Origin: Pseudolabrys sp.
GTDB taxonomy: Bacteria; Pseudomonadota; Alphaproteobacteria; Rhizobiales; Xanthobacteraceae
Reading direction: 5' to 3'
DNA: 41,978 nt
Assembly: GCA_019635575.1 (NCBI GenBank)
Contig: JAHBZF010000018.1
Coordinates: forward strand, 1 to 41,978
Part shown: positions 16,165 to 36,996 of the stretch, in pieces
How the letters are laid out: each line of letters begins with the position of its first letter
How positions within the stretch are numbered: position 1 is the stretch's first letter
Translations under genes and position numbers: made by a program
Notes under the pieces: generated by a model
What the model was told of the DNA's origin: nothing
Database searches by the model: none
What the model saw: only the letters and a program-made list of their open reading frames with translations

Positions 16165-16225
16165 TCCCCGGCTGCGGCATACTGAGGAGCCATTGGGCCA
16201 AAGGCCGTCACCGAGGGGGATTCAC

Positions 16226-17221: not shown

Positions 17222-17230
17222 CTGCGCGGC

Positions 17231-20569: not shown

Positions 20570-21660
20570 CGGAAGCCGTCGTGGAGAAGCTTCTGCAGGC
20601 TGGCGCGGTCGAGATGCCCGAAGCCGAGGCTATGGAGCGTGCGGCCGGTGTGCATGAAATCCTCGCCGCAGACCGCGCCGCCGATCGACGCGAAAGCGCG
20701 CGCCAGCGGCACCGGCACCTTGGCCAGATCGGCGACGGAAATCAGGAACGACAGGCCGATACGCGTGTCCTCACGCATATAGCGGTGCTCGGTAAGGACG
20801 ATATGCTCGCGCCAGTCGCCCGAGTCCGTGAGCCGGTCATGGGAGCCGCGGCCGTACATCCATTCGTCGCCTTCCTTGGCATAGTGGTCGGCCAGCGGAA
20901 AATGCGGCGCGCCGTAACCAAGCTCGCTGCGCACGGCAATGCGTTCGGCGTCGAGCGCGCTGGTCACGCGGCGGATCGCTGGCTGCGTGCCTTCCTTGTG
21001 AATGTCCCAGCGGTCGAAATGTTCGAGTGGGCCGGCATTCATGGTGATGAGCGGCGGATGGATGATCGGACCGGCATTCATCAGCGCGCCGGAGAGCGCG
21101 TCGCCGCAATCCTCGATCACGTTCGGGAACGCGGCCGAGATCACCGACAGTGCATGCGCCTTGCGCACCAGCGGAAACACGCCGGTCGGCAGCCGCTTGG
21201 CGCGCACGGTGATCGCCACCTCGAACGGCGCGTGCTTGCGGGTGAGCCACGGCAGCGTCCCGGTCTCCGCGAACGAGGCCTGCGCGCGGTTGCCGGCGTC
21301 CCACGCCGCCTTGGCGAAGATCATCGCGCCGAACGTGCCGGGCGGCAGATACACTACCTGGCCGTCGCGCAGATGCGGCGCGAGCAGTTTGGCGATGTCG
21401 GGCTGCGCCGTCGCCGGCGCGGGGCAAAGGATCAGCTCCACGTCTTTCACCGCGGCCGCGATGTCGTTGGTGATGTCGGCAATCTTGATGTCGCGCTTGC
21501 CGTTGAAATCCTTGACGGTGATGATGTTGCCGTTGGCGCGATGCTGCGCGACCGCATCACGGTCGCGCCGCCATAGCCGTGTCTCATGCCCGGCGGCCGC
21601 CATATCGGCCGCCGCCGCGAACGAGCCGTTTCCGCCGCCCAGAACTGCAATGCGCATCAT
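20566..21660 (-). CDS. Opine/octopine dehydrogenase-like NAD(P) oxidoreductase
   Basis: A 364-residue two-domain dehydrogenase of the NAD/NADP octopine/nopaline dehydrogenase family. The nucleotide-binding motif is IAVLGGGNGSFAAAADMAAA, with G-G-G-N-G-S typical of the family. The C-terminal helical domain contains NVIEDCGDALSGALMNAGPI and HPPLITMNAG, which includes the conserved N-x-x-x-x-x-H-P region, and later LGYGAPHFPLADHY. Opine dehydrogenases join or oxidatively split amino and keto acids, but many bacterial members have no known substrate. Its place between an acyl-CoA ligase and a 3-hydroxyacyl-CoA dehydrogenase suggests a catabolic oxidation step. That role is inference. Confidence 0.87.
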   Translation of the reverse strand: MMRIAVLGGGNGSFAAAADMAAAGHETRLWRRDRDAVAQHRANGNIITVKDFNGKRDIKIADITNDIAAAVKDVELILCPAPATAQPDIAKLLAPHLRDGQVVYLPPGTFGAMIFAKAAWDAGNRAQASFAETGTLPWLTRKHAPFEVAITVRAKRLPTGVFPLVRKAHALSVISAAFPNVIEDCGDALSGALMNAGPIIHPPLITMNAGPLEHFDRWDIHKEGTQPAIRRVTSALDAERIAVRSELGYGAPHFPLADHYAKEGDEWMYGRGSHDRLTDSGDWREHIVLTEHRYMREDTRIGLSFLISVADLAKVPVPLARAFASIGGAVCGEDFMHTGRTLHSLGFGHLDRASLQKLLHDGFR

Positions 21661-21672
21661 CGATCCTCGCTC

Positions 21673-23286
21673 TTATCGCTTGCTGCGCGACACCGGGCCG
21701 CGATCGAACGTCGCTGCGGTGACGCCGCGCTCGCGCAGCTTGAATTTCTGCACCTTGCCGTTCTCGGTCGCCGGCAGAACTGTCATGAATTCCAGATAGC
21801 GGGGGACCGCGAAATAGGCGAGGCGCGGTTCGCAATAAGCGATCAATTCCGCTGGCGCCAGCGACGTACCGTCGCGCAGGATCACCGCCGCCATCACCTC
21901 GTCCTCGGCAAGCTCCGAGCGCACCGGGAACACGGCGGCGTTGGCGACCGCTGGATGACTGAGCAGCACCTGCTCGACTTCGTAGGACGAGATATTCTCG
22001 CCGCGCCGGCGGATCGCGTCCTTGACGCGGTCGACGAAACGGAAATAGCCGTCCGGCTGACGGATGACGCGATCGCCGGTGTGGAACCAGAGATTGCGCC
22101 ACGCTTCCACGGTCTTGTCGTCGGCGCCGAAATAACCGGTGGCGAAGGCGAACGGATCGTCGGCGCGGACGATCAGTTCGCCGGCGGTGCCGTCGGGCAC
22201 CGGATTGTCCTGGTCGTCGACCACGCGCGCATCGAAGCCGTCGAATGCCGGACCCATGCAACCGGGCTGCTGATGGTCGATCGGCGCGCCGATGGCGAAA
22301 TTGGTCTCGGTGGAGGCCCAACCTTCCAGCAAGCGGATGCCGGTGCGCGCGGTGAAATCGCCGTGGAAGCGCGCCGGCACGCCGGGCGCGAGCGCGAGGC
22401 GCGCGCGGTGGTTGCGCTCGGCCGCATCGGGTGTGCGCGACAGCAGGATCGGCACCATGGCACCGAGCAGGAACGTCACGGTAGCGTTCGAGCGCGTCAG
22501 CGCGTCGAAGAATCCGGATGCGGAGAAGCGCGTCTCGTAGTGGACATGGCCACCGATCAGCAACGCTTGATAAAAAGTGTTGAGCGCATTGGTGTGAAAC
22601 AGCGGCAAGGTGGTCGAGAGCACGTCGCCGTCGTGCAGCTCCAGCAGCGAGGCGGTATTGACGCCCCACCAGAAATATTGCCCGTGCGGGCAGCACACGC
22701 CTTTCGACAGGCCGGTGGTTCCGGAGGTGTACAGGATTAGCGCCATGTCGCCGGGCCGCACCGGCGCCGGCGGGAGCGGCGCGGCATCGCGTGGCATCGG
22801 CGCGATTGTCGCAGGCAGCGCGACCGGCGCGGATGCGCCGATGGTCCAGATCGTGTCGATGGCGAGGGCCGCCGGGTCGAGCAGCGCGAGATTGTCGGCG
22901 AAGCTGGTTTCGAGCACGAGCAGGCGCGCGCCGCTGTTCGACAGCATGTGCTGAAGCTGCGGCCCACGCGAGGCGGTGTTGAGCGGCACCAGCACGGCGC
23001 CGAGCCAGGCGCAGCCGAGCAGCAGTTCGATGAATTCGATCCGGTTCGAGCAGATGATGGCGACGCGGTTGCCGGCGCGTACGCCCGCCGCATGCAAGGC
23101 ACCGGCACAGCGGGCCGCGACGGCGCAGGCGGCGTCATAAGTGAGGGTAGTGTCCCCGAACGTGACCAGCGGCGCGCGGCCGTTCCTGCCGGCCTGACGC
23201 TGCAGCATCGCCGTCAGCGTGCGTTCCTCCGGCGAGAAGGCACCGATCCAGTGTCGTCGTAACGTGGACGCGCCGGTCTGCTTCAT
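21673..23286 (-). CDS. AMP-forming acyl-CoA ligase
   Basis: A 537-residue ANL-superfamily ligase of normal length that activates a carboxylic acid to its CoA thioester through an acyl-AMP. The phosphate loop is [11 protein letters not shown] (residues 186-196). Later motifs include [10 protein letters not shown] (A5), [20 protein letters not shown] (A7), [20 protein letters not shown] (A8) and the catalytic Lys in [11 protein letters not shown] (A10). The sequence pattern is near crotonobetaine/carnitine-CoA ligases, a group used for many acids. Its start overlaps the livF stop (ATGA), so the importer and activation step are translated together. It is a distant paralogue of the ligase at 31430. 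Confidence 0.92.
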
Positions 23287-24005
23287 TCCACTTTGCCGCC
23301 GAGATAGCTGGCGATGACCTTGGGATCATGGATCAGACCGGAGGCCGGCCCGCTGTGCACGATGCTGCCGGTCTCCAGCACATAGCCGTAGTCGGCGGTC
23401 TCCAGCGCGGCGCGAGCGTTCTGTTCGACCAGCAGGATCGACACGCCGAGTTCGCGCAGGTTCATGACGATGCGGAAGATCTCGCGCACGATCAGCGGCG
23501 CGAGGCCGAGGCTCGGCTCGTCGAGCAGCAGCAGGCGCGGCTTCGCCATCAGCGCACGGCCGAGCGCCAGCATCTGCCGTTCGCCGCCGGACAGCGTGCC
23601 GGCGAGCTGCGTGCGCCGTTCCGCGAGCCGCGGGAAGCGCGCGTAGACCTGGTCGAGTTCGGCGTCGAGCGCTTTACGGTTGTTCCAGTGGGTATAGGCG
23701 CCGAGGATCAGATTGTCGGCGACCGTCATGTCCGTGAACAGTTCACGGCTTTCCGGCACCAGGCAGATGCCGCGGCGGACACGCTCCTCGGTGCCGAAGC
23801 GGCGCATGTCGGCGCCGTCATAGCGCACCGCGCCGGTGGAGGGCAGCAGGCCCATGATGGCCGCGAGCATCGTCGTCTTGCCGGCGCCATTCGGGCCGAT
23901 CACGGTGACGATCTGCCCGGCCTGCATCTCGAGCGAGACACCGCTGACGGCCTCGACTTTGCCGTAGGCAACATGCAGATCTTCGACGGCGAGAAGCGTG
24001 CTCAT
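23283..24005 (-). CDS. Branched-chain-type ABC transporter ATPase (LivF family)
   Basis: A 240-residue ATPase with Walker A GPNGAGKT, signature LSGGERQML, Walker [16 protein letters not shown] and switch region [20 protein letters not shown], the usual LivF wording. [19 protein letters not shown] is the Q-loop region. It works with the ATPase domain of the LivM-LivG fusion. Its start overlaps the fusion gene's stop (ATGA). In aromatic-degrading bacteria Liv-type systems often import aromatic or dicarboxylic acids, so the name does not fix the substrate. Confidence 0.93.
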
Positions 24006-25771
24006 GCGACGCCTCCAAGATAGGCTTCCTGCACGCGCGCGTCGGCGCGGATGAGGGCTGGCTCGCCTTCGGCGAGCTTGGCGCCAAAATCGACGACGAC
24101 GATGCGGTCGACCAGGTTCATGACGAATTCCATGTCGTGCTCGACCAGCACGATGGTCATGCCCTCGGCGCGTAAGCCGCGTAGCAGGTCGGACAGGGTC
24201 TGCTTCTCGAGACGGCGCAGGCCGGCGGCCGGCTCGTCGAGGATCATCAGCGTCGGATCGGCGGCGAGTGCCCGCGCGACTTCGAGCAGGCGCTGCTGGC
24301 CGAGCGCGAGATTGCCGGCGAGATCGCCGTATTTCTCGCCGAGGCCGACCCGTTGAAGCTGCCGCAGCGCCTCATGGCGCGCCGAGGCTTCTTCCTTGCG
24401 GTCGAGCCGCAACGCGCCGGTGAGAAATCCGGCACTCGTGCGCGGATAGAGGCCGAGCATCACGTTGTCGATGCAGGTCATGTTGGGACGCAGCTTCACA
24501 TGCTGGAAGGTGCGCGCCATGCCGGCGGCGGCGATGCGCCGCGACGGCAGCGTGGTAATGTCGGTCCCCTGAAAGCGGATGGTGCCGCTGTTCGGTTTCA
24601 GTACGCCGGTGATCAGGTTGAGCAGCGTGCTCTTGCCGGCGCCGTTCGGGCCGATCAGGCCGAGCACCTCGCCGGATCGCACCTCGAAGCTGACGTCGTT
24701 GACGGCAACGAGCGCGCCGAACCGCTTCACCGCATTCCGCACGCTCAGGACGGGATTTTGTGCCGCCGTCTGCTGATGCGCGCGCGGTGGTAGCGCCGGC
24801 GCATCGACCACCGGTCGGGGCTTCGGTCGCGGCAGCAGGCGCTTGATCATCAGCACGACGCCGCCGCGCGCTTTTTGCAGTAGCACGATGAACAGCACGC
24901 CGAACACGACCACTTCGAGCTGCGCGCTGTAGCGGGTGAAGGCCGGCAGCACGTCCTGCAGGATGTTCTTGATCAGCGTGACGATGGCCGAGCCGATCAC
25001 CGCGCCGACGATCTGCCCGGCGCCTCCGACCAGCGCCATCAGCAGGAGTTCGATGCCGGCGCGCACGTCGAACGGGGCGGGGCCAACGTAACGTTGCACA
25101 TGCGCGTAGAGCCAGCCGGACAGGCCGGCAAGCACGCCGCCGAGCACGAACACGGCAAGGCGCATCCGGAACGCGTTGATTGCCAGGCTCTCGACCAGCG
25201 CGGTGCCGCCGCGCAGCGCGCGAATGGCGCGGCCCTGTCGCGAGTCGAGCAGGTTGTGACAGAGCAGCATCGCCAGGCCGAGTACGATCCAGCAGAAGTA
25301 ATAGGCAGCCGTGGTGCCCTCGAACGATAGCTGGCCGATACGGATCGCAGGAATGCCCGACAGGCCGCTATAGCGGCCGAGCATGTCGAGATTGCCGAAC
25401 AGGAAGAAGATCGCGATGCCCCAGGCGATGGTGCTCAATGGCAGGAAATGGCCGCTCAATCGCAGCGTCGCGGCGCCGAGCACGGTGGCGACGATCGCGG
25501 TCATGGCGAGCGACAGGATGAGGCCGATCCACGGCGAGCCGCCCTGTGTCGCGGTGTACCAGGCGGTGGCGTATGCGCCGATGCCGACGAAGGCGGCCTG
25601 TCCGAACGATGTGAGCCCGCCGACGCCGGTGAGCAACACGAGGCCGAGCGTCGCCATGGCGTAGATGGCGATGTAGTTCAGCAGGGTAATGGTGAAGCTG
25701 CCGAACAGGAACGGCGCCGCCGCCAGAAAGGCGATTGCGAGAGCGAAAAGGAGGCGCGTGATCGCGGGCAT
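24002..25771 (-). CDS. LivM-LivG fusion: ABC permease plus ATPase
   Basis: A 589-residue fusion. Residues 1 to about 310 form a LivM-type permease ([40 protein letters not shown] with the EAA-like loop). A proline/arginine-rich linker (about 312-335) joins a LivG-type ATPase with Walker A GPNGAGKS (374-381), [15 protein letters not shown], Walker [13 protein letters not shown] and [14 protein letters not shown]. Such fusions are known in alphaproteobacteria and fix permease-to-ATPase stoichiometry. There is no stop or frame change between the parts. It overlaps livH by one base and livF by four. Confidence 0.93.
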
Positions 25772-26953: not shown

Positions 26954-28102
26954 TTACTTCAACAGCTTCCACTTCCCGTCCTGCAACTGGACGAGCACAC
27001 GCGCGCGCTCGTCGACGCCGAACGGGCTGCCGGGCTTGAAGTTGTAGACGCCGTGGGTGCCGACCACTTCCTTGGTCGCCAGCATGGCGTCGCGGAAGGC
27101 TTCGCGGAACTGCGGCGTGCCGGGCTGCGCTTTTTCCAGGGCGCGCTTGGCCGCATCGGCGAACACCAGCCAGGCGTCGAACGAATAAGCCGAGAAGGCG
27201 TCGCCGGTCGGCGCGTTGTTGACCTTCTGATAGACGTCGCGGAATGCGAGCGAAATCTTCTTGGTCGGATTGTCGTCGGGCAACTGCTCGGCAACGATCA
27301 CAGGGCCGGTCGGCGCGATCACGCCGTTGACCGCCTTGCCGCCGACACGCACGAAGTCCGGATTGATCAACGCATGGGTGCCGTAAAGGCCGCCTTTGTA
27401 ACCGCGCTCGGCGAGCGCGAGATAGGGCAACGCACCGGGCGTACCCGAGCCGCCGGTGATGACGGCGTCCGGCCGCGCCGCGATGATCTTCAGGGTCTGG
27501 CCGGTGACGGAGGTGTCGGCGCGGGCGTAACGCTCGTTGGTGACGACCTCGATGTTCTTGCTCGGCGCGTTCTGCGTCAGCGCGCTGTAGACCAGATCGC
27601 CCCAGGAATCGCTGAAGCCGATATAAGCGGCGCGTTTCACCTTGTCCTGCGCCATGCGCTCGACCACGGCGGCGACCATCAGTGGCGGCGGCTGCGGAAT
27701 GGAAATCAGCCACTGGCCGTTCGGGCTCTGCGGCTGGGTCGCCGGCGTGAGCGAGATGATCGGTGTCTTGGTTTCGGCGGCGACGACGGCCATGGCGATG
27801 GTGCCGGGCACGCCGGACGTGCCCATCAGCACGTCGACCTTTTCTTCCTCCACCAGCTTGCGCGCGTTGCGCGTCGCGGCGGACGGATCAGAGGCGTCGT
27901 CGAGCCGGATCAGCTTGACCTTCACGTCGCCGATCTTGCTGGCATAGGCTTCGCCCGCGAGAATGCCCTTTTCATAAGGGATGCCGATCGAGGCGCCCGG
28001 CCCGCTCAGGGAGGTGACGAAACCGACGGTGATATCCGCGGCGGAGACGGCCGTGACCGACACGAGCACGGACGCGGCGGCAACGCACAGACGCGACAAC
28101 AT
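26954..28102 (-). CDS. Branched-chain-type ABC transporter substrate-binding protein (LivK family)
   Basis: A 382-residue periplasmic receptor. The signal peptide ends near residue 22 (VLVSVTAVSA-ADITVGF). The type I receptor pattern includes VGFVTSLSGPGASIGIPYEK, VKLIRLDDASDPSAATRNAR, KLVEEEKVDVLMGTSGVPGT and GDAFSAYSFDAWLVFADAAK. The start is fixed by GGGAGG seven bases before ATG 28102; an open frame extends to 28366 but crosses the promoter. It heads the eight-unit minus-strand operon. This receptor group (ABC_perm periplasmic, Liv-like) often binds aromatic acids in soil bacteria. Confidence 0.93.
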   Translation of the reverse strand: MLSRLCVAAASVLVSVTAVSAADITVGFVTSLSGPGASIGIPYEKGILAGEAYASKIGDVKVKLIRLDDASDPSAATRNARKLVEEEKVDVLMGTSGVPGTIAMAVVAAETKTPIISLTPATQPQSPNGQWLISIPQPPPLMVAAVVERMAQDKVKRAAYIGFSDSWGDLVYSALTQNAPSKNIEVVTNERYARADTSVTGQTLKIIAARPDAVITGGSGTPGALPYLALAERGYKGGLYGTHALINPDFVRVGGKAVNGVIAPTGPVIVAEQLPDDNPTKKISLAFRDVYQKVNNAPTGDAFSAYSFDAWLVFADAAKRALEKAQPGTPQFREAFRDAMLATKEVVGTHGVYNFKPGSPFGVDERARVLVQLQDGKWKLLK

Positions 28103-28140
28103 GATTGATCCTCCCAAACTGAGCCTCTGGACGAGCCCAG

Positions 28141-28170
28141 CAATTACTTTAACTTTAAAACTTCTGTCAG
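28141..28170 (-). promoter_or_regulatory. Promoter and diverged AT-rich motif of the Liv-type operon (site 2)
   Basis: On the minus strand CTGACA (28170-28165) and GTAATT (28147-28142) are 17 bp apart, a reasonable sigma-70 promoter 40 bp before the receptor start. The spacer holds a relative of the motif at 16142 and 28600. It keeps CAAT and TTTAAAA but has one extra base and several changes. A regulator binding here would overlap the promoter. Confidence 0.5.
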
Positions 28171-28348
28171 GGCTGGCAAGCGCCTTTGCAATTCGGCTCT
28201 TGACGGCCGCCCCCGCATCGAAAGACGCGCCGCACAGGTCCGCGTGGAAGGCGATATCGATTGCGCGACCTGCAAGATTTATTGCGTGAATGGCACGATC
28301 GATCGCCACGGAATTGTGACGGGTACCGTCGTGCCTCGCATCGTTGTG

Positions 28349-28387
28349 GCGCGTGACGCGCAACACGTCATCACGACAGCGCGTGAC
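28349..28387. promoter_or_regulatory. Paired 9-bp repeats in the divergent promoter region
   Basis: GCGCGTGAC occurs at 28349-28357 and 28379-28387, 30 bp apart. Between them TGACG-cgcaaca-CGTCA forms a dyad. It lies midway between the divergent operons at 28102 and 28626. It may be an activator site; no regulator is identified. The rest of the 523-bp gap holds no supported gene. Confidence 0.35.
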
Positions 28388-28625: not shown

Positions 28626-29600
28626 ATGCCGCAGGATGGTCGTCTCGAACTGGTCGTTACGGATGTGGAAAGCGTCACCCCGCTGATCCGCACCATTCGG
28701 CTGGCGCGACCGCACCAGGAGCCATTGCCGTCCTGGGAACCGGGTGCGCATCTCAAGGTGCGCATCGGCGGCAACGATGAACGCTCCTATTCGCTGATCA
28801 ATGCGTCCGCCGATCCCGCGGCTTGCACCCACCCGAAAGCCTATCGGCTCGGTATCCGGCTCGAAACACCGAGCCAGGGCGGCTCGGTCTACATGCACGC
28901 CTTGAAAGCCGGCGACACCGTTTCGGTGACGCCGCCGAGCAACAATTTCCCGCTGGAGCCGACCGGCAAGCCGGTGGTGCTGGTGGCCGGCGGTATCGGC
29001 GTCACGCCGATCGTGTCGATGGCGGCGGCGCTGCAGGCGGCGGGTCATCCCTACCGGTTCTATTACGCCGGCCGTGCCCGCGACCAACTGGCATTCCTGC
29101 CGGAGATCGAGGCGCTCGCTGGCGGGAATCTCACCGTACACACCGACGACACCGCGCAGGCTTTCTTCGATCTCGCCGGGCTGATGGGGTCGCTCGCCGG
29201 CGACGAGCCGCTGTATTGCTGCGGGCCGCTGCCGATGATCGAAGCGGCGATCGCCACGGCGAAGACGCTCGGCTGGGCGTCGGGCCGGCTGCATTTCGAG
29301 ATTTTCACCGCGGCGGCGCCGCAAGCAGGCGATCAGGCGTTCGAGGTGGTGCTCAACAGCACCGGTGAAAGCTTCACCGTGCCTCCGGGAAAGTCCGTAC
29401 TCGACGTGCTGATCGAAGCGGGCAAGGATCCGCTTTATGATTGCAAGCGCGGCGATTGCGGGATCTGCCAGGTCGGCGTGATCGAGGGAACGCCAGACCA
29501 CCGCGACTTCATTCTGTCCGACAGCGAGAAGGCGTCGGGCAAGCTGATGCAGATTTGCGTGTCGCGCGCGAAGACGCCGCGTCTGGTGCTGGATTTGTAA
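28626..29600 (+). CDS. Oxygenase reductase with C-terminal [2Fe-2S] ferredoxin domain
   Basis: A 324-residue class IA (phthalate dioxygenase reductase-like) electron-transfer protein. The flavin domain has R53-S-Y-S56. The NAD domain has GGIGVTPIVSM (122-132) and CCGPLPMIEAA. The C-terminal plant-type ferredoxin carries Cys273, Cys278, Cys281 and Cys311 (C-x4-C-x2-C-x29-C). It passes electrons from NADH to the Rieske oxygenase encoded next. No Shine-Dalgarno precedes ATG 28626; an AT-rich dyad occupies that place, so the message may be leaderless or the operator may overlap the initiation region. It is first of eight same-strand genes with tight spacing. Confidence 0.93.
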   Translation: MPQDGRLELVVTDVESVTPLIRTIRLARPHQEPLPSWEPGAHLKVRIGGNDERSYSLINASADPAACTHPKAYRLGIRLETPSQGGSVYMHALKAGDTVSVTPPSNNFPLEPTGKPVVLVAGGIGVTPIVSMAAALQAAGHPYRFYYAGRARDQLAFLPEIEALAGGNLTVHTDDTAQAFFDLAGLMGSLAGDEPLYCCGPLPMIEAAIATAKTLGWASGRLHFEIFTAAAPQAGDQAFEVVLNSTGESFTVPPGKSVLDVLIEAGKDPLYDCKRGDCGICQVGVIEGTPDHRDFILSDSEKASGKLMQICVSRAKTPRLVLDL

Positions 29601-29617
29601 GACGACAGGAGGCAGTG

Positions 29618-30931
29618 ATGGACCGTTATCGTGGCAATGCGGATGCCGTCAAAGGTCTGGTCCGCGACACCGAGGTGCATCGCGACGTCTATATCGACGA
29701 CGAGGTGTTTCAACTCGAGATGGAGCACCTGTTCGCCAACACCTGGGTCTATGTCGGCCATGACAGTCAGGTGGCCAATCCGGGCGATTATTTCGGCACC
29801 ACCATCGGTGCGCAGCCGGTGCTGATGGTGCGTCACACCGACAAGACGGTGAAAGTTCTCTACAACCGCTGCCCGCACAAGGGTACGCGCATCACTACCG
29901 AGACCTGCGGAAATACAGGGAAGTTCTTCCGCTGCCCGTATCACGCCTGGAGTTTCCGCACCGACGGCTCGCTGCTCGCGATCCCGCTGAAGAAGGGTTA
30001 CGAGAACACTGGCTTCGAGGGGAGCCATGCCGCCAAGGGCATGACGCCGGTGAAGCATGTGCACAATTACCGCGGCTTCGTGTTCGCCAAGCTGAACGAC
30101 GGCGGGCCCGGCTTCGAGGAGTTCTTTGGCGACAGCCTGTCGAGCTTCGACAACATGGTCGATCGCTCGCCGGTCGGCAAACTCGAAGTCGCCGGCGGCG
30201 TGTTGCGCTACATGCACAACTGCAACTGGAAGATGCTGGTCGAGAACCAGACCGACACCTGCCATCCGATGGTGGCGCATGAATCGTCGGCAGGAACCGC
30301 GATCAGCGTGTTCGATAAGCAGCCGCCCGGCACCAAGAAGCCGATGGCGGTGGAGATCTACGCGCCGTTCATGGCGCCGTACGAGTTCTTCGAGAACATG
30401 GGCATCCGCGTCTGGCCGAACGGCCACGGCCATACCGGCGTGCATCACTCGATCCATTCCGACTATTCCGCCATTCCCGGCTATTTCGAGAAAATGGTCG
30501 CGGCCTATGGCGAAGAGCGCGCCAAGGCGATCCTCGGGGAGAACCGTCACAACACGGTCTATTTCCCCAATCTGATGATCAAAGGTCCGATCCAGCTCAT
30601 CCGTCTGTTCAAGCCGATCGCGGCCAACAAGACGCTGGTGGAATCCTGGACGTTCCGGCTGGTGGATGCGCCCGACATGCTCTTGGAGCGCACCTTGATG
30701 TACAACCGGCTGATCAATGCGCCGACCTCGGTGGTCGGCCACGACGATCTCGAAATGTACGAGCGCGCACAGGAAGGGCTGCACGTCGACGCCAATCAAT
30801 GGGTCAACGTGCAGCGGCTCTACGATGCGGCCGAGCCGCCGGACGCGACCGCGGAAACCAACGGCACGACGGAATGGCAGATGCGCAATCAGTTCCGGGC
30901 CTGGTCGAAATTCATGACCCTGTCGATGTGA
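29618..30931 (+). CDS. Rieske aromatic ring-hydroxylating dioxygenase, alpha subunit
   Basis: A 437-residue catalytic subunit. The Rieske cluster ligands are Cys85, His87, Cys106 and His109 (NRCPHKGT and FRCPYHAW). The mononuclear iron site is Asp213, His216 and His221 (NQTDTCHPMVAH). It inserts both oxygen atoms of O2 into an aromatic ring, or one for a hydroxylation or demethylation, using electrons from the preceding reductase. AGGAGG lies before ATG 29618; the open frame continues upstream to 29441 inside the reductase gene, but that part is not coding. Having a beta subunit next to it points to an alpha3beta3 enzyme of the benzoate/toluate/anthranilate kind. The substrate is not identifiable here. 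Confidence 0.95.
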   Translation: MDRYRGNADAVKGLVRDTEVHRDVYIDDEVFQLEMEHLFANTWVYVGHDSQVANPGDYFGTTIGAQPVLMVRHTDKTVKVLYNRCPHKGTRITTETCGNTGKFFRCPYHAWSFRTDGSLLAIPLKKGYENTGFEGSHAAKGMTPVKHVHNYRGFVFAKLNDGGPGFEEFFGDSLSSFDNMVDRSPVGKLEVAGGVLRYMHNCNWKMLVENQTDTCHPMVAHESSAGTAISVFDKQPPGTKKPMAVEIYAPFMAPYEFFENMGIRVWPNGHGHTGVHHSIHSDYSAIPGYFEKMVAAYGEERAKAILGENRHNTVYFPNLMIKGPIQLIRLFKPIAANKTLVESWTFRLVDAPDMLLERTLMYNRLINAPTSVVGHDDLEMYERAQEGLHVDANQWVNVQRLYDAAEPPDATAETNGTTEWQMRNQFRAWSKFMTLSM

Positions 30932-30941
30932 GGATGCGGCC

Positions 30942-31424
30942 GTGACAACGCCCAGCGACCAGCAATTGATCGAGTTCGTCCAGCGCGAAGCGCGGCTGAT
31001 CGATCAACACCGGTTCGAGGAATGGCTCGAACTGTTCACCGACGATGGCATGTACTGGATGCCGCTCGAATGGGGGCAGACCGACCCGAAGCTGACGACT
31101 TCGCTGATGTACGAGGACAAGCTGCTGCTGACGATCCGGGTCGAGCGGCTGAAGGGCAATCGCACCTTCTCGCAGAAACCGAAAAGCCGCTGTCACCATC
31201 TGCTGCAGACGTCGCAGATTGACCGGCGCGACGAGGCCAACAACGAATACGTCACCTGGACGCCGATGCACTATGTCGAGACGCGGTTCGACGAGCAACA
31301 GCTCTATGCCGCGTGGGTGACGCATACGCTGACGGTGAAGGACGGTGCGCTGCGCATCAAGCTCAAGCGCGTCGATCTGGTGAACTGCGACGCCGCGTTC
31401 GGCAATATCCAGCTCTTCATGTGA
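30942..31424 (+). CDS. Aromatic ring-hydroxylating dioxygenase, beta subunit
   Basis: A 160-residue small subunit with the cone-shaped NTF2-like fold. It has the family start (LIEFVQREARLIDQHRFEEW, LELFTDDGMYWMPLEW), the mid segment SRCHHLLQTSQI and the last strands LRIKLKRVDLVNCD ending NIQLFM. It is structural in the alpha3beta3 hexamer. GTG 30942 is the likely start, ten bases after the alpha-subunit stop. Its end overlaps the region where the ligase begins. Confidence 0.93.
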   Translation: MTTPSDQQLIEFVQREARLIDQHRFEEWLELFTDDGMYWMPLEWGQTDPKLTTSLMYEDKLLLTIRVERLKGNRTFSQKPKSRCHHLLQTSQIDRRDEANNEYVTWTPMHYVETRFDEQQLYAAWVTHTLTVKDGALRIKLKRVDLVNCDAAFGNIQLFM

Positions 31425-31429
31425 TCGGC

Positions 31430-33073
31430 ATGCAGCTTCCGGCCGACAGTCCGCAGAGCGTCTACGATCTGTTCAGCCGGCAGGCGGCGCGGGTGCCGCA
31501 GCGCGCGTTCCTGTGCGTGCTGCCGGAGACGGCACAGGCTTACGGCATCGCGGCCGGCGAAGTGACCTATGGCGAGGCGCACGCCACCGTCGAGCGGTTG
31601 CGCGCAGCCTATGCCGCAGCGGGCTATCGCGCCGGGCAGCGCGTGGCGATGCTGCTGGAAAACCGGCCGGCCTACTTCCTGCACTGGTTCGCGCTCAACG
31701 CGCTCGGTGTCTCGGTGGTGCCGCTCAATCCGGATATGCGCGCGGCCGAACTGGAATATGTGCTGGGCCATTCGGATGCCGTCGGCGTCGTGGCGATCCT
31801 TGCGCGGCATACCGGTTTGCGCGCGGCGGCGCAGGCGGTCGGTCGCGCGATCCCGGTGTTCGGCCCCGACGACGCGCCGCAGCCGCCATTCGTGGGCGAG
31901 GTGAGCGCGCCGGACACGGGCGGCGCCGCCGAATGTGCGCTGCTCTACACCTCCGGCACCACCGGCAAGCCGAAAGGCTGCGTGCTGCCGAATGAATATT
32001 TCCTCTATGCCGGTCACTGGTACGCGACGGCCGGCGGGCTGATCGTGTTTCTCGACGATGGCGAGCGCATGCTCACCCCGCTGCCGGTGTTCCACATGAA
32101 CGCCATGGCCTATTCGGCGATGGCGATGCTCGCGGTCGGCGGCTGCCTGATCCCGCTCGACCGCTTCCATCCGAAGACCTGGTGGCAAAGTGTGCGCGAC
32201 AGCCGCGCCAGCATCGTCCACTATCTCGGTGTGATGCCGCCGATGCTGATGAGCGCGCCGGAGAGCAAAGAAGATCGTTCGCACAATGTGCGGTTCGGTT
32301 TCGGCGCGGGTGTCGACCGGGCGCTGCATGCGCCGTTCGAGCAGCGCTTCGGCTTTCCGCTGATCGAGGCGTGGGCGATGACCGAAACCGGCGCGGGCGC
32401 GGTGGTGGTCGCGGCGCGCGAGCCGCGTCATGTGGGCACGAGTTGCTTCGGTCGGCCCGGGCCCGAACTCGAAACCCGCATCGTCGATGAAGCGGACGCC
32501 GACGTGCCGCGGGGCGAGCCGGGCGAACTGCTGGTGCGCCACGCGGGCGGTGCGCCGCGCTACGGTTTTTTCCGTCGCTATCTGAAAGACCCGGATGCCA
32601 CCGCGCAGGCGTGGGCGGGCGACTGGTTCCACACCGGCGACGTGGTGCGGCAGGACGCCGACGGCGCGATGCACTTCGTCGACCGGCGCAAGAACGTGAT
32701 CCGCCGCTCCGGCGAGAACATCTCCGCCGTCGAGGTGGAGAGCGTGCTGATGCAGCATCCGGCGGTGCGGCAGGTGGCCGTCGCGCCGGTGGCCGATCCG
32801 GTACGCGGCGACGAGGTGTTCGCCTGCATCGTTACCCATCAGCCGGCGGCGGACCGTGCGGCGCGCGAACGGGTGGCGGGGGAGATCGTCGCGTGGTGTC
32901 TGACGCGGCTCGCTTATTACAAGGCGCCGGGCTATGTCGGTTTCGTGCCGGAGATCGCTTTGACCTCGACCCAGAAGATCCAGCGCGGCAATTTGAAGGA
33001 CATGGTTGCCGGCCTTGTCGGCGGTGACGCCTGCGTCGATACGCGCGCGCTGAAACGGCGGACCGCAGCATGA
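31430..33073 (+). CDS. AMP-forming acyl-CoA ligase
   Basis: A 547-residue ANL-superfamily ligase. The phosphate loop YTSGTTGKPKG lies at residues 173-183. EAWAMTETGA, WFHTGDVVRQDADGAMHFVD, KNVIRRSGENISAVEVESVL and the A10 Lys region TSTQKIQRGNLK are all intact. I use ATG 31430; GTG 31421, which overlaps the previous stop, is an equal alternative. A longer open frame to 31313 overlaps the beta subunit and is rejected. It overlaps the thiolase-like gene by four bases. It probably makes a CoA ester of the oxidised aromatic acid or of a ring-fission product. Its relative at 21673 in the divergent operon may act on a different intermediate. Confidence 0.92.
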   Translation: MQLPADSPQSVYDLFSRQAARVPQRAFLCVLPETAQAYGIAAGEVTYGEAHATVERLRAAYAAAGYRAGQRVAMLLENRPAYFLHWFALNALGVSVVPLNPDMRAAELEYVLGHSDAVGVVAILARHTGLRAAAQAVGRAIPVFGPDDAPQPPFVGEVSAPDTGGAAECALLYTSGTTGKPKGCVLPNEYFLYAGHWYATAGGLIVFLDDGERMLTPLPVFHMNAMAYSAMAMLAVGGCLIPLDRFHPKTWWQSVRDSRASIVHYLGVMPPMLMSAPESKEDRSHNVRFGFGAGVDRALHAPFEQRFGFPLIEAWAMTETGAGAVVVAAREPRHVGTSCFGRPGPELETRIVDEADADVPRGEPGELLVRHAGGAPRYGFFRRYLKDPDATAQAWAGDWFHTGDVVRQDADGAMHFVDRRKNVIRRSGENISAVEVESVLMQHPAVRQVAVAPVADPVRGDEVFACIVTHQPAADRAARERVAGEIVAWCLTRLAYYKAPGYVGFVPEIALTSTQKIQRGNLKDMVAGLVGGDACVDTRALKRRTAA

Positions 33074-34239
33074 CGCATCGCCGTGCCGCTTACGACAACA
33101 TCGTCATCTGCGCGCCGGTGACGATCCCCTATCGTCGCTATTCCACGCACAGCGCGCATTGGTGGCTCGGCCGGTCACTGCATGAGCTGACCCGCACCGC
33201 CGGCATCAAGCCGAAGGATATCGATGGTCTCACGGTGTCGAGCTTCACCGTCGGCCCCGATACCGCGATCGGTCTGACCCAGCATTTCGGCCTGTCGCCG
33301 CGCTGGCTCGATCACATTCCGTTCGGCGGCGCGAGCGGCGTCGTGGCGCTGCGCCGTGCCGCGCGCGCGGTGCAGGCGGGAGACGCCGACATCGTCGCCT
33401 GTATCTCCGGCGACACCAACCACGTCGACTCGTTCCGCAAGACGCTGTCGACCTTTTCGCGGTTCGCCCAGGACGCTGTCTATCCCTACGGTTCCGGCGG
33501 TGCCAACTCTTCGTTCGCGCTTATTACCAAGCATTACATGAATCTCTACGGCGCGAAGCGTGAGGATTTCGGCAAGCTGTGTATCGCGCAACGCGACAAC
33601 GCGTTGTCGATCCCGTTCGCGATGATGAAGAAGAAACTGACGCTCGACGAATATATGTCGGCGCGGCCGATCGCTGATCCGGTGCATCTGTTTGATTGCG
33701 TCATGCCCTGTGCCGGCGCGGAAGCCGTACTGGTCTGCCGCGAGGACACCGCGAAATCGCTCGGTCTTCCCATGGTGCGCATGCTCGCCACCATCGAGCG
33801 GCACAATGCGTTCGGCGGCGACGTGATCCAGCATCGTGGCGGCTGGGAGGTGGACATCGGCGAGCTTTGGGCCATGGCCAGCATGAAGCCCTCCGATGTG
33901 AGTTTGGTGGAAACCTATGACGACTATCCGGTGATCGTCATGATGCAGTTCGAGGATCTCGGCTTCTGCAAGAAGGGCGAGGGGCCGGATTTCGTGCGCG
34001 GCCATACCTTCACCAATGACGGCACGTTCCCGCACAACACGTCGGGCGGTCAATTGTCGACCGGGCAGGCGGGCGCGGCCGGAGGGTTCCTGGGCCTGAC
34101 CGACGCGGTGCGGCAGCTCACCGACCGGCCGATCGGCACGGCAGTGGCGGATGCGCGGAGCGCTGTCATCTCCGGCTTCGGCATGATCAACTACGATCGC
34201 GGCCTGTCGTCGGCGGCCGCCGTGCTGGCGAGGGCCTGA
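33070..34239 (+). CDS. Thiolase-like protein lacking the catalytic Cys (lipid-transfer/Ltp2-like group)
   Basis: A 389-residue protein of the thiolase superfamily, SCP-x/lipid-transfer type. The nucleophile position (C-A-S-G in true thiolases) reads Gly87-Ala-Ser-Gly in IPFGGASGVVALRRA. The GHP motif near the C-terminus reads GQA (Gln333) in NTSGGQLSTGQAGAAGG. So neither the acyl-accepting Cys nor the His is present. ETYDDYPVIV (281-290) supplies tyrosines. Thiolase-like Ltp2 proteins use tyrosines and a DUF35 partner for retro-aldol cleavage of steroid side-chain CoA esters. The adjacent DUF35 gene makes the same chemistry plausible. The overlaps (ATGA before, TGATG after) suggest a complex. 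Specific function is inference. Confidence 0.88.
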   Translation: MTHRRAAYDNIVICAPVTIPYRRYSTHSAHWWLGRSLHELTRTAGIKPKDIDGLTVSSFTVGPDTAIGLTQHFGLSPRWLDHIPFGGASGVVALRRAARAVQAGDADIVACISGDTNHVDSFRKTLSTFSRFAQDAVYPYGSGGANSSFALITKHYMNLYGAKREDFGKLCIAQRDNALSIPFAMMKKKLTLDEYMSARPIADPVHLFDCVMPCAGAEAVLVCREDTAKSLGLPMVRMLATIERHNAFGGDVIQHRGGWEVDIGELWAMASMKPSDVSLVETYDDYPVIVMMQFEDLGFCKKGEGPDFVRGHTFTNDGTFPHNTSGGQLSTGQAGAAGGFLGLTDAVRQLTDRPIGTAVADARSAVISGFGMINYDRGLSSAAAVLARA

Positions 34240-35480
34240 TGACGACGCCGCTCACGCGCCCGAAACGCAAGAACCCGCTCAAGCGCACGCGCCTGCCGCT
34301 CAACCCGCAGGGCGTGCGCAGCCGCACCGCGCATGGTCTTACGGCGGCGGCGGCGGAAGGTCGCTTCGCGCTTCAGGTGTGCGAGGACTGCAAGACGGTG
34401 ATCTATCCGCCGCGCGACTGCTGTCCAAACTGCCTGTCCGCGCGGCTGCCGTTCCGCGATGTGCCGCGCGGCGGCATGCTGGTGGCGGAAACGACTATCC
34501 GCACCTCGACCGATCCCTATTTCCGCGAGCGCACGCCGTGGCGCGTCGGCAGCATCAAGCTCGATGCCGGGCCGGTGATCGTCGCGCATCTGCACGGCGA
34601 CACGGTGGAAGGTGCGCGCGTGCGGCTCGAATTCAAGCTCGACAAGAGCGGCGCGGCGGTGGCGCTCGCTCTGCCGGAACAGGACACGCCCCATATGGCC
34701 GACGACCCCCATCTGCGCGAGATGACCTGCGATCCGAAATTCCGCCGCGTGCTGATCACCGACGGTCGCACCGAGGTGGGGCAGGCGATGGCCAAGGCGT
34801 TCTCCGACGCCGGCGCCAACATTGTGTTCGTCGGCGTTGCCGATCAATGGAAACCGTTTCCGGGGATGGACAAGCTGCGACAGATCGAGCGCGTCGAGAT
34901 CGTGCCGCTTGACGTCACCGACACCGAATCCGTGACCGAGCAGGCGGAGCAGAACGGGTCGCGCATCGACATCATCGTCAACACGGCGGAGCATGTGCGT
35001 GCCGGTGGCATCGTCGACCGCCATGGTCTTACCGTGGCGCGCGAGGAGATCGACGTGCGCTATCTCGGCCTGATGCGGCTCGCGCAGGCATTCGGTCCGG
35101 TGATGCGCTTCCGCGGCGCCGACGGCGTCAATTCGGCGGCAGCGTTCGTTAACCTGCTGTCTGTGCATGCGCTGATGAACTGGCCGACCTATGGCGCCTA
35201 TTCGGCGGCCGAGGCAGCATGCCTGTCGGCGGCGCAATGTATGCGCGCCGAGTTGCGGCCGGGCGGCGTCAAGGTGCTCAACGTGTTCTTCGGCCCGCTG
35301 GAGACCGAATGGTTCCAGACCGTGCCGCCGCCGAAGGTGACGCCGGCCGCTCTGGCGAAGGCGGTGGTGCGCGGTTTGCAGCAGGGCATCGAGGATGTGT
35401 TCGTCGGCGATATCGCCGAGGACATCCGCGCGCGGCTCGCGGTCAATCCGAAAGCGCTCGAACGCGAAATGGCAGGTTAG
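34239..35480 (+). CDS. DUF35 zinc-ribbon/OB-fold domain fused to a degenerate SDR
   Basis: A 413-residue two-domain protein. Residues about 30-150 form a DUF35 domain with zinc ribbon Cys48-x2-Cys51 and Cys62-x2-Cys65 (VCEDCKTVIYPPRDCCPNC), then an OB-fold (GSIKLDAGPVIVAHLHGD). Residues about 165-413 are an SDR Rossmann domain. There the glycine motif reads TDGRTEVG (174-181), Ser308 is kept (FVNLLSVHAL), but the catalytic Tyr-x3-Lys reads Tyr321-S-A-A-Glu325. The missing Lys argues against normal dehydrogenase catalysis. DUF35 proteins dock on thiolase-like partners and bind acyl-CoA, and the upstream gene encodes such a partner. The SDR part may be structural, bind CoA, or shield an intermediate. 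Confidence 0.85.
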   Translation: MTTPLTRPKRKNPLKRTRLPLNPQGVRSRTAHGLTAAAAEGRFALQVCEDCKTVIYPPRDCCPNCLSARLPFRDVPRGGMLVAETTIRTSTDPYFRERTPWRVGSIKLDAGPVIVAHLHGDTVEGARVRLEFKLDKSGAAVALALPEQDTPHMADDPHLREMTCDPKFRRVLITDGRTEVGQAMAKAFSDAGANIVFVGVADQWKPFPGMDKLRQIERVEIVPLDVTDTESVTEQAEQNGSRIDIIVNTAEHVRAGGIVDRHGLTVAREEIDVRYLGLMRLAQAFGPVMRFRGADGVNSAAAFVNLLSVHALMNWPTYGAYSAAEAACLSAAQCMRAELRPGGVKVLNVFFGPLETEWFQTVPPPKVTPAALAKAVVRGLQQGIEDVFVGDIAEDIRARLAVNPKALEREMAG

Positions 35481-35488
35481 GAGAAATT

Positions 35489-36271
35489 ATGCCGACCGAT
35501 GTGCTTGCCTTCGCCCGCGATATCGCCGCCGGCGCCGTGCGCGTGATCGACCTCACGCAGACGCTGTCGCAGGACTTTCCGATCATCACGCTGCCGCCGG
35601 AGCTTGGTCAGTGCGCGCCGTTCCGCATCGAGGAAGTGTCGCGCTACGACGAGCGCGGACCGGCCTGGTACTGGAATAACATCTCGCTCGGTGAGCACAC
35701 CGGAACGCATTTCGATGCGCCGATCCACTGGATTTCCGGCAAGGATCTGCCGAACAATGCGGTCGATACCATCGATGTGCGCAAGTTCATTGCGCCGGCC
35801 GTGGTGGTCGATTGCTCGAAAGAATGCGCCGCCGATCCGGACTTCGCGCTGACGATTCCGTTCGTTGAAGCATGGGAGGCAAAGCACGGCAGGATTCCGC
35901 CGGGCCATTGGGTGCTGCTGCGCACCGACTGGTCGAAGCAGAGCTTCGCCGACTACGCCAATCTGCGCGATGACGGCGCGCATACGCCCGGCCCGGAGCC
36001 GAAAGTGGTCAAGTGGTTCGTCGAGGAGCGCGACGTGCACGGCTTCGGCACCGAGACGATCGGCACCGACTTTGGGCAGGGGCACCATTTCAATCCGCCG
36101 TTTCCGGCGCATTTCTACATGCACGGCAAGGGCCGGTTCGGCCTGCAATGCCTGACGAATCTCGATCTGCTGCCGCCGAAAGGCGCGGTGATCGTCGCCG
36201 CGCCGCTGAAGATCAAGCAGGGCTCGGGTAGCCCGCTGCGCGTGCTTGCTTTGGTGTCGGGGGAGAAATGA
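35489..36271 (+). CDS. Cyclase-family metal hydrolase (kynurenine formamidase-like fold)
   Basis: A 260-residue enzyme with the family metal motif H-x-G-T-H-x-D-x-P-x-H as His70-Thr-Gly72-Thr-His74-Phe-Asp76-Ala-Pro78-Ile-His80. Also present are the opening VIDLTQTLSQDFP and GHWVLLRTDWSK. The family includes kynurenine formamidase and isatin hydrolase, which open amide or lactam bonds, and many of unknown substrate. GGAG lies before ATG 35489. It may open a lactone or amide made after ring oxidation. The next gene overlaps by four bases. Confidence 0.88.
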   Translation: MPTDVLAFARDIAAGAVRVIDLTQTLSQDFPIITLPPELGQCAPFRIEEVSRYDERGPAWYWNNISLGEHTGTHFDAPIHWISGKDLPNNAVDTIDVRKFIAPAVVVDCSKECAADPDFALTIPFVEAWEAKHGRIPPGHWVLLRTDWSKQSFADYANLRDDGAHTPGPEPKVVKWFVEERDVHGFGTETIGTDFGQGHHFNPPFPAHFYMHGKGRFGLQCLTNLDLLPPKGAVIVAAPLKIKQGSGSPLRVLALVSGEK

Positions 36272-36996
36272 CCCAGCCTGTCGCGATCGTCACTGGCGGC
36301 TCGACCGGCATCGGCGCGGAACTGTGCCGGCAGATGCTGGAGCGCGGCTACGAGGTGATCTCGCTGGCGCGGCGCAAGCCGCCGATCAGCGACGCGCACC
36401 TGCATGCGATGGAAGTCGATCTGTTCGACAATGCCGCGACGGCGCAGGCGATGCGCGAGATCGCGACGCAGTATCAGGTGACGCATTTCATCCATAACGC
36501 CGGGCTGATCCGCCCGGCCTTGCTGCCCGACGTGACGCAGGATGATCTCGCGGCGGTGACGCAACTGCATCTCGGTGCGGCGCTGACCATCATGCAGGCG
36601 GTGCTGCCGGGCATGCGGCAGCACCATTTCGGCCGCGTCGTGCTGCTGTCGTCGCGCGGCGCGCTTGGCCTTCAGACACGCTCGGTTTACTCCGCGACCA
36701 AGGCGGGGATGATCGGCATGGCACGCACCTGGGCGCTGGAAACGGCGGCCGACGGCATCACCGTCAACGTGGTGGCGCCGGGGCCGATCGCCGACACCGA
36801 GATGTTCCGCAGCGTCATTCCAGCGGAGAGCGAGCGCGAGAAGGCGCTGGCGGCGCAGATCCCGGTGAAGCGGCTTGGCCGCAGCGATGACGTGGCGCGC
36901 GCGGTGCTGTTCTTCTGCGATGCGGAGAACGGCTTCGTCACTGGGCAGACACTGTATGTTTGCGGCGGTGCCAGCGTCGGCACGCTGACGATTTAG
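36268..36996 (+). CDS. Short-chain dehydrogenase/reductase (intact active site)
   Basis: A 242-residue classical SDR. The cofactor motif is VTGGSTGIG (T9-G16), the N-A-G motif reads HNAG, and the catalytic triad is Ser129 (LLSSRGA) with Tyr141 and Lys145 (YSATK). It ends the eight-gene operon. Unlike the SDR half of the DUF35 fusion, it keeps all catalytic residues and should reduce or oxidise a hydroxyl/keto intermediate such as a cis-diol or 3-hydroxyacyl compound. Dihydrodiol dehydrogenation after the Rieske oxygenase is an attractive role but unproven. Confidence 0.92.
   Translation: MTQPVAIVTGGSTGIGAELCRQMLERGYEVISLARRKPPISDAHLHAMEVDLFDNAATAQAMREIATQYQVTHFIHNAGLIRPALLPDVTQDDLAAVTQLHLGAALTIMQAVLPGMRQHHFGRVVLLSSRGALGLQTRSVYSATKAGMIGMARTWALETAADGITVNVVAPGPIADTEMFRSVIPAESEREKALAAQIPVKRLGRSDDVARAVLFFCDAENGFVTGQTLYVCGGASVGTLTI

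Follow-up and report, generated by a model that had tools for sequence, protein, structure and literature searches.

A thiolase-fold protein and its DUF35 partner with a degenerate SDR domain as a putative retro-aldolase of the iad auxin degradation operon in Pseudolabrys sp.

Introduction

Thiolase-fold aldolases that act together with a DUF35 protein are known from steroid degradation. The bile-acid side-chain aldolase Sal-Shy of Comamonas testosteroni (9myr) has a thiolase fold with Gly at the position of the thiolase Cys, a catalytic Tyr within the motif YDCY and the DUF35 protein Shy as partner, the zinc ribbon of which is of the C3H1 type. The steroid aldolase Ltp2-ChsH2 (6ok1) likewise has a thiolase fold in which Gly occupies the Cys site, together with the Tyr of a YDxx motif (YDHF) and a DUF35 partner, here with C4 zinc ligands, and the hydroxyl group of its substrate sits on a ring carbon (C17). 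In an aromatic pathway, a thiolase and a DUF35 protein also form benzoylsuccinyl-CoA thiolase BbsAB (7pxp), which keeps Cys, HDAF and GHP and is a true thiolase.

In PMC8383072, the name iad denotes a cluster described there as similar to iac. For the iad genes of Variovorax paradoxus CL014 (PMC12633357; PMC9613470), a 2025 preprint assigns IadG as ketothiolase, IadH as alcohol dehydrogenase and IadI as broad amidase (PMC12633357). Deletion of iadF, iadG, iadH or iadI each led to build-up of C10H9NO4 (dioxindole-3-acetate), and C8H7NO2 was found in the iadI deletion as well as in a strain expressing all genes but iadI; this is the formula of dioxindole, i.e., isatin plus 2 H. A reductive removal was inferred there, and the intermediates were described as quickly channelled (PMC12633357). 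The formula of isatin, C8H5NO2, does not occur in the main text of the preprint. Among the matches listed in a search of the open PMC literature, a scope outside which most subscription papers lie, there was neither a retro-aldol step or DUF35 protein in auxin degradation nor a paper on a DUF35-SDR fusion. Thus far, the step of side-chain removal has been assigned by annotation, which does not match the residues of the proteins.

Results

The window, i.e., the whole analyzed stretch of 41,978 nucleotides of Pseudolabrys sp. DNA (contig JAHBZF010000018.1 of assembly GCA_019635575.1), carries an operon on the forward strand from 28626 to 36996 that corresponds in its parts and their order to iadCDEFGHIJ, the genes for degrading auxin (IAA) via isatin. 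The order from C to J agrees with the gene numbers in PMC10374108 and the construct names in PMC12633357. The operon encodes an oxygenase reductase (IadC, 28626..29600), the Rieske oxygenase alpha subunit (IadD, 29618..30931, start inferred within an ORF that opens at 29441) and beta subunit (IadE, 30942..31424), and an acyl-CoA ligase (IadF, 31430..33073, start codon inferred within an ORF that opens at 31313), followed by the thiolase-fold protein IadG of 389 amino acids (33070..34239), IadH of 413 amino acids (34239..35480), IadI (35489..36271) and IadJ (36268..36996). IadD and IadE matched the crystallized oxygenase of Variovorax CL014 best (9o71; E-values of 5.6e-191 and, for the beta chain, 1.4e-49). 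The thiolase-fold and DUF35-SDR pair is therefore IadG and IadH of an iad operon; the two ORFs overlap by one base and together span exactly the 33070..35480 that had been predicted. A periplasmic binding protein encoded on the reverse strand (26954..28366, ORF coordinates with unrefined start; best PDB match 7ylt) is possibly an IAA uptake protein.

The best PDB match of IadG was Sal (9myr), both by sequence (E-values of 6.3e-48 with the single sequence and 3.4e-65 with the profile) and by fold (E-value of 1.5e-32, TM-score of 0.87, using a predicted model with pLDDT 84.5 and values below 50 for residues 120-143). Among the matches listed in the fold search, all 50 were thiolase-like chains by title, confirming the thiolase fold. 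Overall identity was 31% to Sal, barely above the 28% to a Pyrococcus thiolase, and 23% to the BbsAB thiolase; grouping IadG by identity alone was hence uninformative, and because the values for Sal and the thiolase are nearly equal, the case for a retro-aldolase depends on the residue pattern. In the tree, the four thiolases stood apart (100/99) from every row that shows the aldolase pattern, and Sal adjoined the group of proteins with the motif YDDY (90/90), both across long branches, so that the tree is only supportive and does not discriminate between kinship to Sal and to Ltp2.

Conservation was assessed in a census that drew on loci L018-L097, the best 80 of 453 relatives, so that distant orthologues are under-sampled; matches below 40% identity and the window itself (L005) were dropped from its rows, and eleven plasmid loci were read separately, outside the census. 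The counts include near-duplicates, since L020 was kept although 96-100% identical to the window, as were both L006 and L052, which lie on the same 534451-base contig and are apparently one record. Alignment to the Pyrococcus thiolase 7yvy and to BbsB placed Gly87 (codon at 33328..33330, forward strand) at the site of the nucleophilic Cys and Gln333, within GQA 332-334 (34063..34071, forward strand), at the site of the GHP His. Among census rows with letters in the respective column, position 87 was Gly in all 86 and Cys in none, and position 333 was Gln in all 87 and His in none, on which grounds an ordinary thiolase was rejected. Tyr283 and Asp285 of the motif YDDY 283-286 (33916..33927, forward strand; YDHF in Ltp2, YDCY in Sal) as well as Gln328 were each found in 86 of 86 rows. 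The motif was also present in all 13 further IadG-like matches from the plasmids and the window's own genome (the thiolases of L003 and L004 set apart), and a distant YDDY relative, L016, has Ser in the Gly87 column. The nucleophile and GQA assignments of the original prediction thus hold; its description of the protein as lacking Cys applies to the nucleophile, whereas IadG does possess other cysteines.

The conserved residues of IadG have counterparts in Sal: Gly87, Tyr283, Gln328 and Gln333 align with Gly89, Tyr302, Gln347 and Gln352. On the other hand, the oxyanion residues Gln161 and Gly391 of Sal are not conserved and align with Ala145 and Met372, and the known proton donors, Cys304 of Sal and Tyr344 of Ltp2, are replaced by Asp285, at the position of the His in YDHF of Ltp2, and by Gln333. 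With both donors replaced, IadG fits neither clade without qualification and is instead a variant, and since the Sal variants C304A, C304S and C304H were reported to be inactive, the Asp at this site is a real departure. The loss of the thiolase residues would also fit an inactive IadG serving as chaperone or scaffold, with the C-C bond cut by another enzyme or spontaneously after CoA activation; however, the invariance of Tyr283, Asp285 and both Gln in the census, together with the build-up of dioxindole-3-acetate reported upon iadG deletion (PMC12633357), renders this extremely unlikely.

IadH comprises a DUF35 part at residues 36-133 (34344..34637, forward strand; zf-ChsH2 and OB_ChsH2_C by domain match), i.e., a ChsH2-like C4 zinc ribbon with OB fold, encoded next to IadG, with zinc Cys 48, 51, 62 and 65 conserved in 90 of 90 census rows, and an SDR domain at about residues 169-405 (34743..35453, forward strand; SDR matches). 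The fusion is a difference from Ltp2-ChsH2, and the SDR domain stands where the Sal partner has a MaoC hydratase. The SDR domain is conserved to the same degree as the DUF35 part, and its fold is clear (TM-score of 0.93 by target length to 5u4s for a predicted model with pLDDT 88.9). As predicted, the former Tyr-x3-Lys reads Tyr321-x3-Glu325 in the window (35199..35213, forward strand). Only 2 of the 88 IadH rows with letters keep both residues; orthologues retaining the thiolase Cys or the SDR Lys had been named as evidence against the prediction, and although the Cys never occurred, the Lys persists in 17 of 88 rows, 15 of which miss the Tyr. A second lesion, absent from the original prediction, was seen in the nucleotide-binding loop, where TGxxxGxG has become TDGRTEVG; the first Gly is replaced in all 90 rows, by Asp in 86 of them and by Ser or Asn in the other 4. 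As a control, IadJ, the other SDR of the operon, has TGxxxGxG and Tyr-x3-Lys intact, and all 59 rows keep Tyr, Lys and the three glycines, with Ser in the Ser column of 49 (rows longer than 200 amino acids from 63 loci found, the window being one of them). Judged by these residues, the dehydrogenase site of IadH is decayed, and a working dehydrogenase was rejected on this basis. That the SDR domain of IadH is a copy of IadJ is disfavored, given that the best-scoring NCBIfam model differs between the two, although both scores stay below the cut-off.

IadI is by sequence an isatin hydrolase homologue (E-value of 1.4e-116 to isatin hydrolase A, 5nnb), and its motif HTGTHFDAPIH fits the HxG[T/A]HxDxPxH Mn motif described for isatin hydrolases in PMC6117287. 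In Roseibium aggregatum, the gene directly after iadGH matches the crystallized LaIHA (5nnb) over all 257 residues (E-value of 7e-175). Across the best 80 of 453 relatives, an IadI relative of at least 55% identity was present in 79 loci and IadG in 77, the remaining three of which begin at a contig end. The SDR extension is nonetheless not strictly tied to isatin loci: within the stretch examined, no isatin hydrolase match was seen for L073 or for L099 and L100, both of which bear the SDR, and in L017, with a plain DUF35 protein, such a match lies at a distance of about 8 kb and is truncated where the stretch ends. For L021, without an IadF relative, and L064, without iadDE, Pfam scans yielded context only.

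Discussion

Here, we propose that IadG and IadH form a retro-aldolase that converts dioxindole-3-acetyl-CoA to isatin and acetyl-CoA, with the SDR domain of IadH in a structural or binding, non-redox role; we assign this reading a probability of about 0.84. IadF would convert dioxindole-3-acetate (3-hydroxy-2-oxindole-3-acetate) to its CoA thioester, a tertiary beta-hydroxyacyl-CoA with the hydroxyl on a ring carbon as in the Ltp2 substrate. IadG and the DUF35 domain of IadH would then act as one enzyme, in which Tyr283 may abstract the proton of the C3 hydroxyl, the bond between C3 and the side-chain CH2 would break with release of isatin, and the acetyl-CoA enolate would be protonated, most likely by Asp285. 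IadI would subsequently convert isatin to isatinate en route to anthranilate. A retro-aldol cleavage is redox-neutral and yields isatin, which would explain the near-constant isatin hydrolase homologue next door. A retro-aldolase of the Ltp2 type with a DUF35 partner in an aromatic operon, as originally predicted, is thus strongly supported, whereas the active site resembles that of Sal more than that of Ltp2, with Tyr and with Gln at the position of Tyr344 of Ltp2, and has an Asp of its own. The iad pathway as such is known, and only the roles of these genes appear to be mis-assigned. For the SDR domain, the data show decay of the dehydrogenase site, and the scaffold or CoA shield of the original prediction stays hypothetical.

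The published roles, in which an ordinary ketothiolase IadG and an alcohol dehydrogenase IadH would, together with IadF, remove the acetyl group reductively to give dioxindole, are in line with the annotation of both genes, with the thiolase fold of IadG and, above all, with the C8H7NO2 of the iadI mutants (PMC12633357), which is the main contrary datum for the retro-aldol reading and obliges us to assume an off-path reduction of isatin. However, the residues argue against both roles: the thiolase Cys and His and the dehydrogenase dyad and loop Gly are lost, while IadJ retains its own. Moreover, the beta carbon of the substrate is quaternary, so that no beta-keto thiolase substrate can be formed without ring opening, and the next gene encodes an isatin hydrolase homologue. 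We therefore regard these roles as very improbable.

The same mutant data could be accommodated if IadGH were a retro-aldolase in which the SDR domain still bound a nucleotide or the CoA part and reduced isatin or gated the active site. In favor of a retained ligand site are N248 (89 of 89 rows with letters), Ser308 (85 of 89), a basic residue at position 177 (90 of 90) and the invariant W204, R292, A294, D295 and W358 (59 rows). By contrast, the positions of Tyr and Lys are among the more variable ones of the domain, at the 86th and 87th percentile, and the IadH tree, from which L013, L014 and L020 were left out, requires a minimum of 14 substitutions at either position, although scored as kept versus lost 3 changes suffice for Lys and 10 for Tyr. 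We consider this variant unlikely, albeit with some weight. A catalytically inactive SDR kept beside an active one has an analogue in BbsCD, which belongs to a separate pathway and has no DUF35 fusion. The SDR domain of a retro-aldolase IadGH might, as an inactive subunit beside an active one, tether IadJ into a channelling complex, an idea that gains from the active-looking IadJ two genes downstream of IadH and from the quick channelling of intermediates reported in PMC12633357. An obligate tether is disfavored, however, by the lack of an IadJ relative of at least 45% identity in 11 of 53 long-flank loci keeping IadH, where it could lie elsewhere in the genome, and the different best NCBIfam models of the two SDRs also count against it; such a role appears improbable.

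Beyond the non-redox retro-aldolase favored here, it is conceivable, though we put it forward tentatively and at somewhat less than even odds, that, among thiolase-fold aldolases, the YDDY proteins constitute a third class by catalysis, with a Tyr base and an Asp acid, used beyond steroids, and that the partner SDR of the isatin branch is a non-redox ligand-binding or gating domain with a decayed dyad, the TDG[RK] loop, and the inserted segment 294-300 and two Trp fixed. If so, several YDDY relatives with a standalone DUF35 partner would be further unrecognized aldolases.

If the main reading is correct, retro-aldol formation of isatin and acetyl-CoA would account for a middle step that is poorly explained in a known auxin degradation pathway and close this pathway with redox balance, and the range of thiolase-fold aldolases would widen beyond steroids to include indoles, with a distinct active site. 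IadH would clearly exemplify a dehydrogenase domain retained after loss of its chemistry, and in the reverse direction the enzyme may be a C-C bond-forming catalyst for 3-substituted 3-hydroxyoxindoles. Auxin-destroying bacteria alter root growth, and a root bacterium equipped with iad genes was reported to raise the shoot biomass of Arabidopsis grown in natural soil (PMC12633357).

Results and Discussion

The reading frames of IadG, the thiolase-fold protein (33070–34239, plus strand, 389 aa), and IadH, the DUF35-SDR fusion (34239–35480, plus strand, 413 aa), lie exactly at the coordinates of the original prediction, overlap by one base and belong to a closely packed plus-strand operon. Pfam and NCBIfam gave the domain order ferredoxin-type reductase (28626–29600, plus strand), Rieske oxygenase alpha subunit, Rieske oxygenase beta subunit, AMP-forming CoA ligase and IadG, followed by IadH (zf-ChsH2 and OB_ChsH2_C, together DUF35, then an SDR domain), a hydrolase of the cyclase family and, last, an intact SDR. 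The binding protein at 26954–28366 on the minus strand has 7ylt as top PDB match; our guess is that 7ylt is IadK2. The contig is one of 209 in a 3.83 Mb assembly, and the nearest named relative among the best 80 of 453 is Rhizobiales bacterium 64-17 (IadH 99%). In parts and order, the operon is the iadC-D-E-F-G-H-I-J auxin-degradation locus of Variovorax described in three reports (PMC12633357, PMC10374108, PMC9613470). The top PDB match of IadD is the Variovorax CL014 structure 9o71 (E 5.6e-191), a code named in PMC12633357, with 7yls second (4e-186), and IadE matches the beta chain common to 7yls, 8h2t and 9o71 (1.4e-49). Judged by its sequence, the cyclase-family protein IadI is an isatin hydrolase: it matches isatin hydrolase A (5nnb) with an E value of 1.4e-116 and carries HTGTHFDAPIH, the enzyme and its motif being described in PMC6117287. 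In Roseibium aggregatum, the gene directly 3' of the DUF35-SDR gene matches the crystallised isatin hydrolase over 257/257 residues (E 7e-175).

The module was surveyed in 80 named loci, the best 80 of 453 relatives. IadG precedes IadH in 77/80, the remaining three starting at a contig end, and an isatin hydrolase relative (≥55%) is present in 79/80. Its distance from IadH, measured between tblastn ends, is at most 300 bases in 78 of these loci; in the one exception it is about 3 kb. At ≥45%, IadD was detected in 53/80, IadF in 51/80 and IadJ in 61/80 loci; within the 53 loci of this set with long flanks, G was found in 53, I in 52, D and J in 42 each and F in 37. With G and I near-constant and D, F and J less so, the constant core therefore consists of the aldolase subunit, the DUF35-SDR protein and isatin hydrolase. 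The iadG-iadH junction is usually a near-overlap, with a gap of about 400 bases in 3 of the 72 loci measured (L084, L087, L089).

Alignment with the Cys thiolases 7yvy and BbsB bore out the predicted replacement of the nucleophilic cysteine by Gly87 and of the GHP histidine by Gln333, and it placed the HDAF histidine opposite Tyr283. The census of IadG comprised 87 rows, namely the window and 86 loci at ≥40% identity, the entry that is the window itself being left out. Orthologues were checked for a retained thiolase cysteine, and glycine occupies the site in 86/86 rows with letters there; counted likewise, Tyr283, Asp285 and Gln328 are each conserved in 86/86, Asp284 in 85/86 and Gln333 in 87/87. 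According to PMC12329534, the base of the bile-acid aldolase Sal is Tyr302 and its acid Cys304, supported by Gln347 and Gln352, with glycine at the former cysteine site. These residues align with Tyr283, Asp285, Gln328, Gln333 and Gly87 of IadG, and 11/11 residues of that paper that were looked up gave the correct letter in the numbering used, which verifies the mapping; IadG is therefore a Sal frame with aspartate in place of the acid cysteine. Unlike Sal, IadG also lacks the oxyanion residues corresponding to Gln161 and Gly391.

The nearest solved protein to IadG is 9myr, Sal with its DUF35 partner, by sequence (E 6.3e-48), profile (3.4e-65) and fold (Foldseek 1.5e-32, TM 0.87), followed in the Foldseek list by thiolase 7yvy, 4u4e and the steroid aldolase Ltp2. 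In a maximum-likelihood tree of 30 rows, four Cys-thiolases stand apart from all others (100/99) and Sal adjoins the YDDY group (90/90), the branches being long and the deep joins unsafe. The Sphaerobacter 'putative thiolase' 4u4e has glycine at the cysteine site and YDSF, yet retains HP; it may be one more type of aldolase that carries the wrong name among structures already solved.

According to PMC12633357, deletion of iadF, iadG, iadH or iadI each leads to accumulation of C10H9NO4, dioxindole-3-acetate. IadF would convert this acid to the thioester, placing the C3 hydroxyl beta to the thioester on a quaternary carbon. Since a beta-ketone cannot form at quaternary C3, thiolysis would be closed to this substrate. 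Retro-aldol cleavage would instead be redox-neutral and yield acetyl-CoA plus isatin (C8H5NO2), probably with Asp285 as acid; the formula arithmetic is our own. Ltp2 carries out the same kind of reaction at the C17 hydroxyl. Contrary data come from PMC12633357: C8H7NO2, the formula of dioxindole, was found in the iadI deletion and in a strain expressing all but iadI, from which its authors infer reductive removal. We assume that this compound is isatin reduced in the cell; cultures are reported to contain isatin, dioxindole and isatinic acid (PMC9613470). Also, replacement of Sal Cys304 by Ala, Ser or His gave inactive enzyme (PMC12329534).

The zinc ribbon of IadH is canonical C4 in 90/90 rows, as in ChsH2 and in contrast to the C3H1 ribbon of Shy. 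A broken SDR dyad had been predicted, and as a dyad it held in orthologues, both residues being kept in only 2/88 rows (L079, L097); loss of the Lys by itself did not hold throughout, Lys being present in 17/88 and Tyr in 21/88. The residues seen at the two sites include F/E, T/Q, F/K, W/Q and L/H, and reading by eye found no Tyr-x3-Lys in seven further SDR-bearing plasmid copies (L015, L098, L100–L104). Both sites rank at the 86th–87th percentile of variability within the SDR domain, and each requires at least 14 residue changes on the IadH tree. Scored as kept versus lost, Tyr requires 10 changes and Lys only three, and the Lys-bearing rows are therefore largely clustered. Mean pairwise identity is 0.59 for the SDR domain and 0.59 for DUF35 (1,500 sampled pairs). 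Asp replaces the first glycine of the nucleotide loop in 86/90 rows, and position 177 is always basic (Arg or Lys, 90/90). In the control IadJ, Tyr, Lys and the three glycines are kept in 59/59 rows and the Ser column is S in 49/59. Relative to the active-type relative 5u4s, IadH carries a seven-residue insertion (294–300). Across 59 rows its A294, D295 and A300 do not vary, and the same holds for W204 and W358 outside the insertion. The SDR domain looks to be under selection for a role different from SDR chemistry.

A YDDY site together with a plain DUF35 partner occurs at L103, L105, L016, L017 and L002; the fold thus does not need the SDR extension. L103 is on a Sulfitobacter sp. THAF37 plasmid, where a second aldolase-like gene of the YDDY kind and its standalone OB-fold partner (9529–11129) follow just downstream of the iad operon, so that related enzymes with and without the pseudo-SDR lie close together. 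In Novosphingobium resinovorum (L105) the partner was found by tblastn, with no Pfam assignment at 1e-6. In the genome to which the window belongs, the paralogue L002 (G000:C166:42011-46090, 1501–2580; 40% to IadG) has a plain zf-ChsH2 partner. The pair lies with an ADP-forming acyl-CoA synthetase-like protein on one side and a TctC receptor on the other, and L002 is perhaps another aldolase, acting on a CoA ester. On an Ochrobactrum sp. MT180101 plasmid (L016:3295–10532), the YDDY protein and plain OB-fold are clustered with AtuA-family, DUF4387, CoA transferase and ABC transporter genes; here this kind of aldolase may serve another pathway. The tie between the SDR extension and isatin loci is strong, not strict: around L073, L099 and L100 the fusion is present and the stretch examined contains no isatin hydrolase, and L017 (Burkholderia multivorans) has a plain DUF35 with an isatin hydrolase about 8 kb away. 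At L099 (7832–10092, Paroceanicella profunda plasmid), the DUF35-SDR gene that accompanies the IadG relative is shortened, at 1101 bases; no isatin hydrolase match was found within about 9 kb on either side, and its enzyme may act on another substrate.

Elsewhere in the window, genes for a 3-hydroxyacyl-CoA dehydrogenase, an octopine-dehydrogenase-like protein and an acyl-CoA ligase lie in a row (19580–23286, minus strand), adjoined by a branched-chain-type ABC transporter (24002–25771), and together perhaps form a second small CoA-ester pathway. A LysR regulator, TctC receptor, sulfatase and ABC transporter (12449–19577) are perhaps a unit for sulfate-ester uptake and cleavage.

Among the literature matches listed, mostly open-access, no aldolase in auxin degradation and no DUF35-SDR fusion was found. 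The kind of enzyme, a DUF35-dependent thiolase-fold aldolase, is already known; its substrate class, Asp site and pseudo-SDR partner appear to be new.
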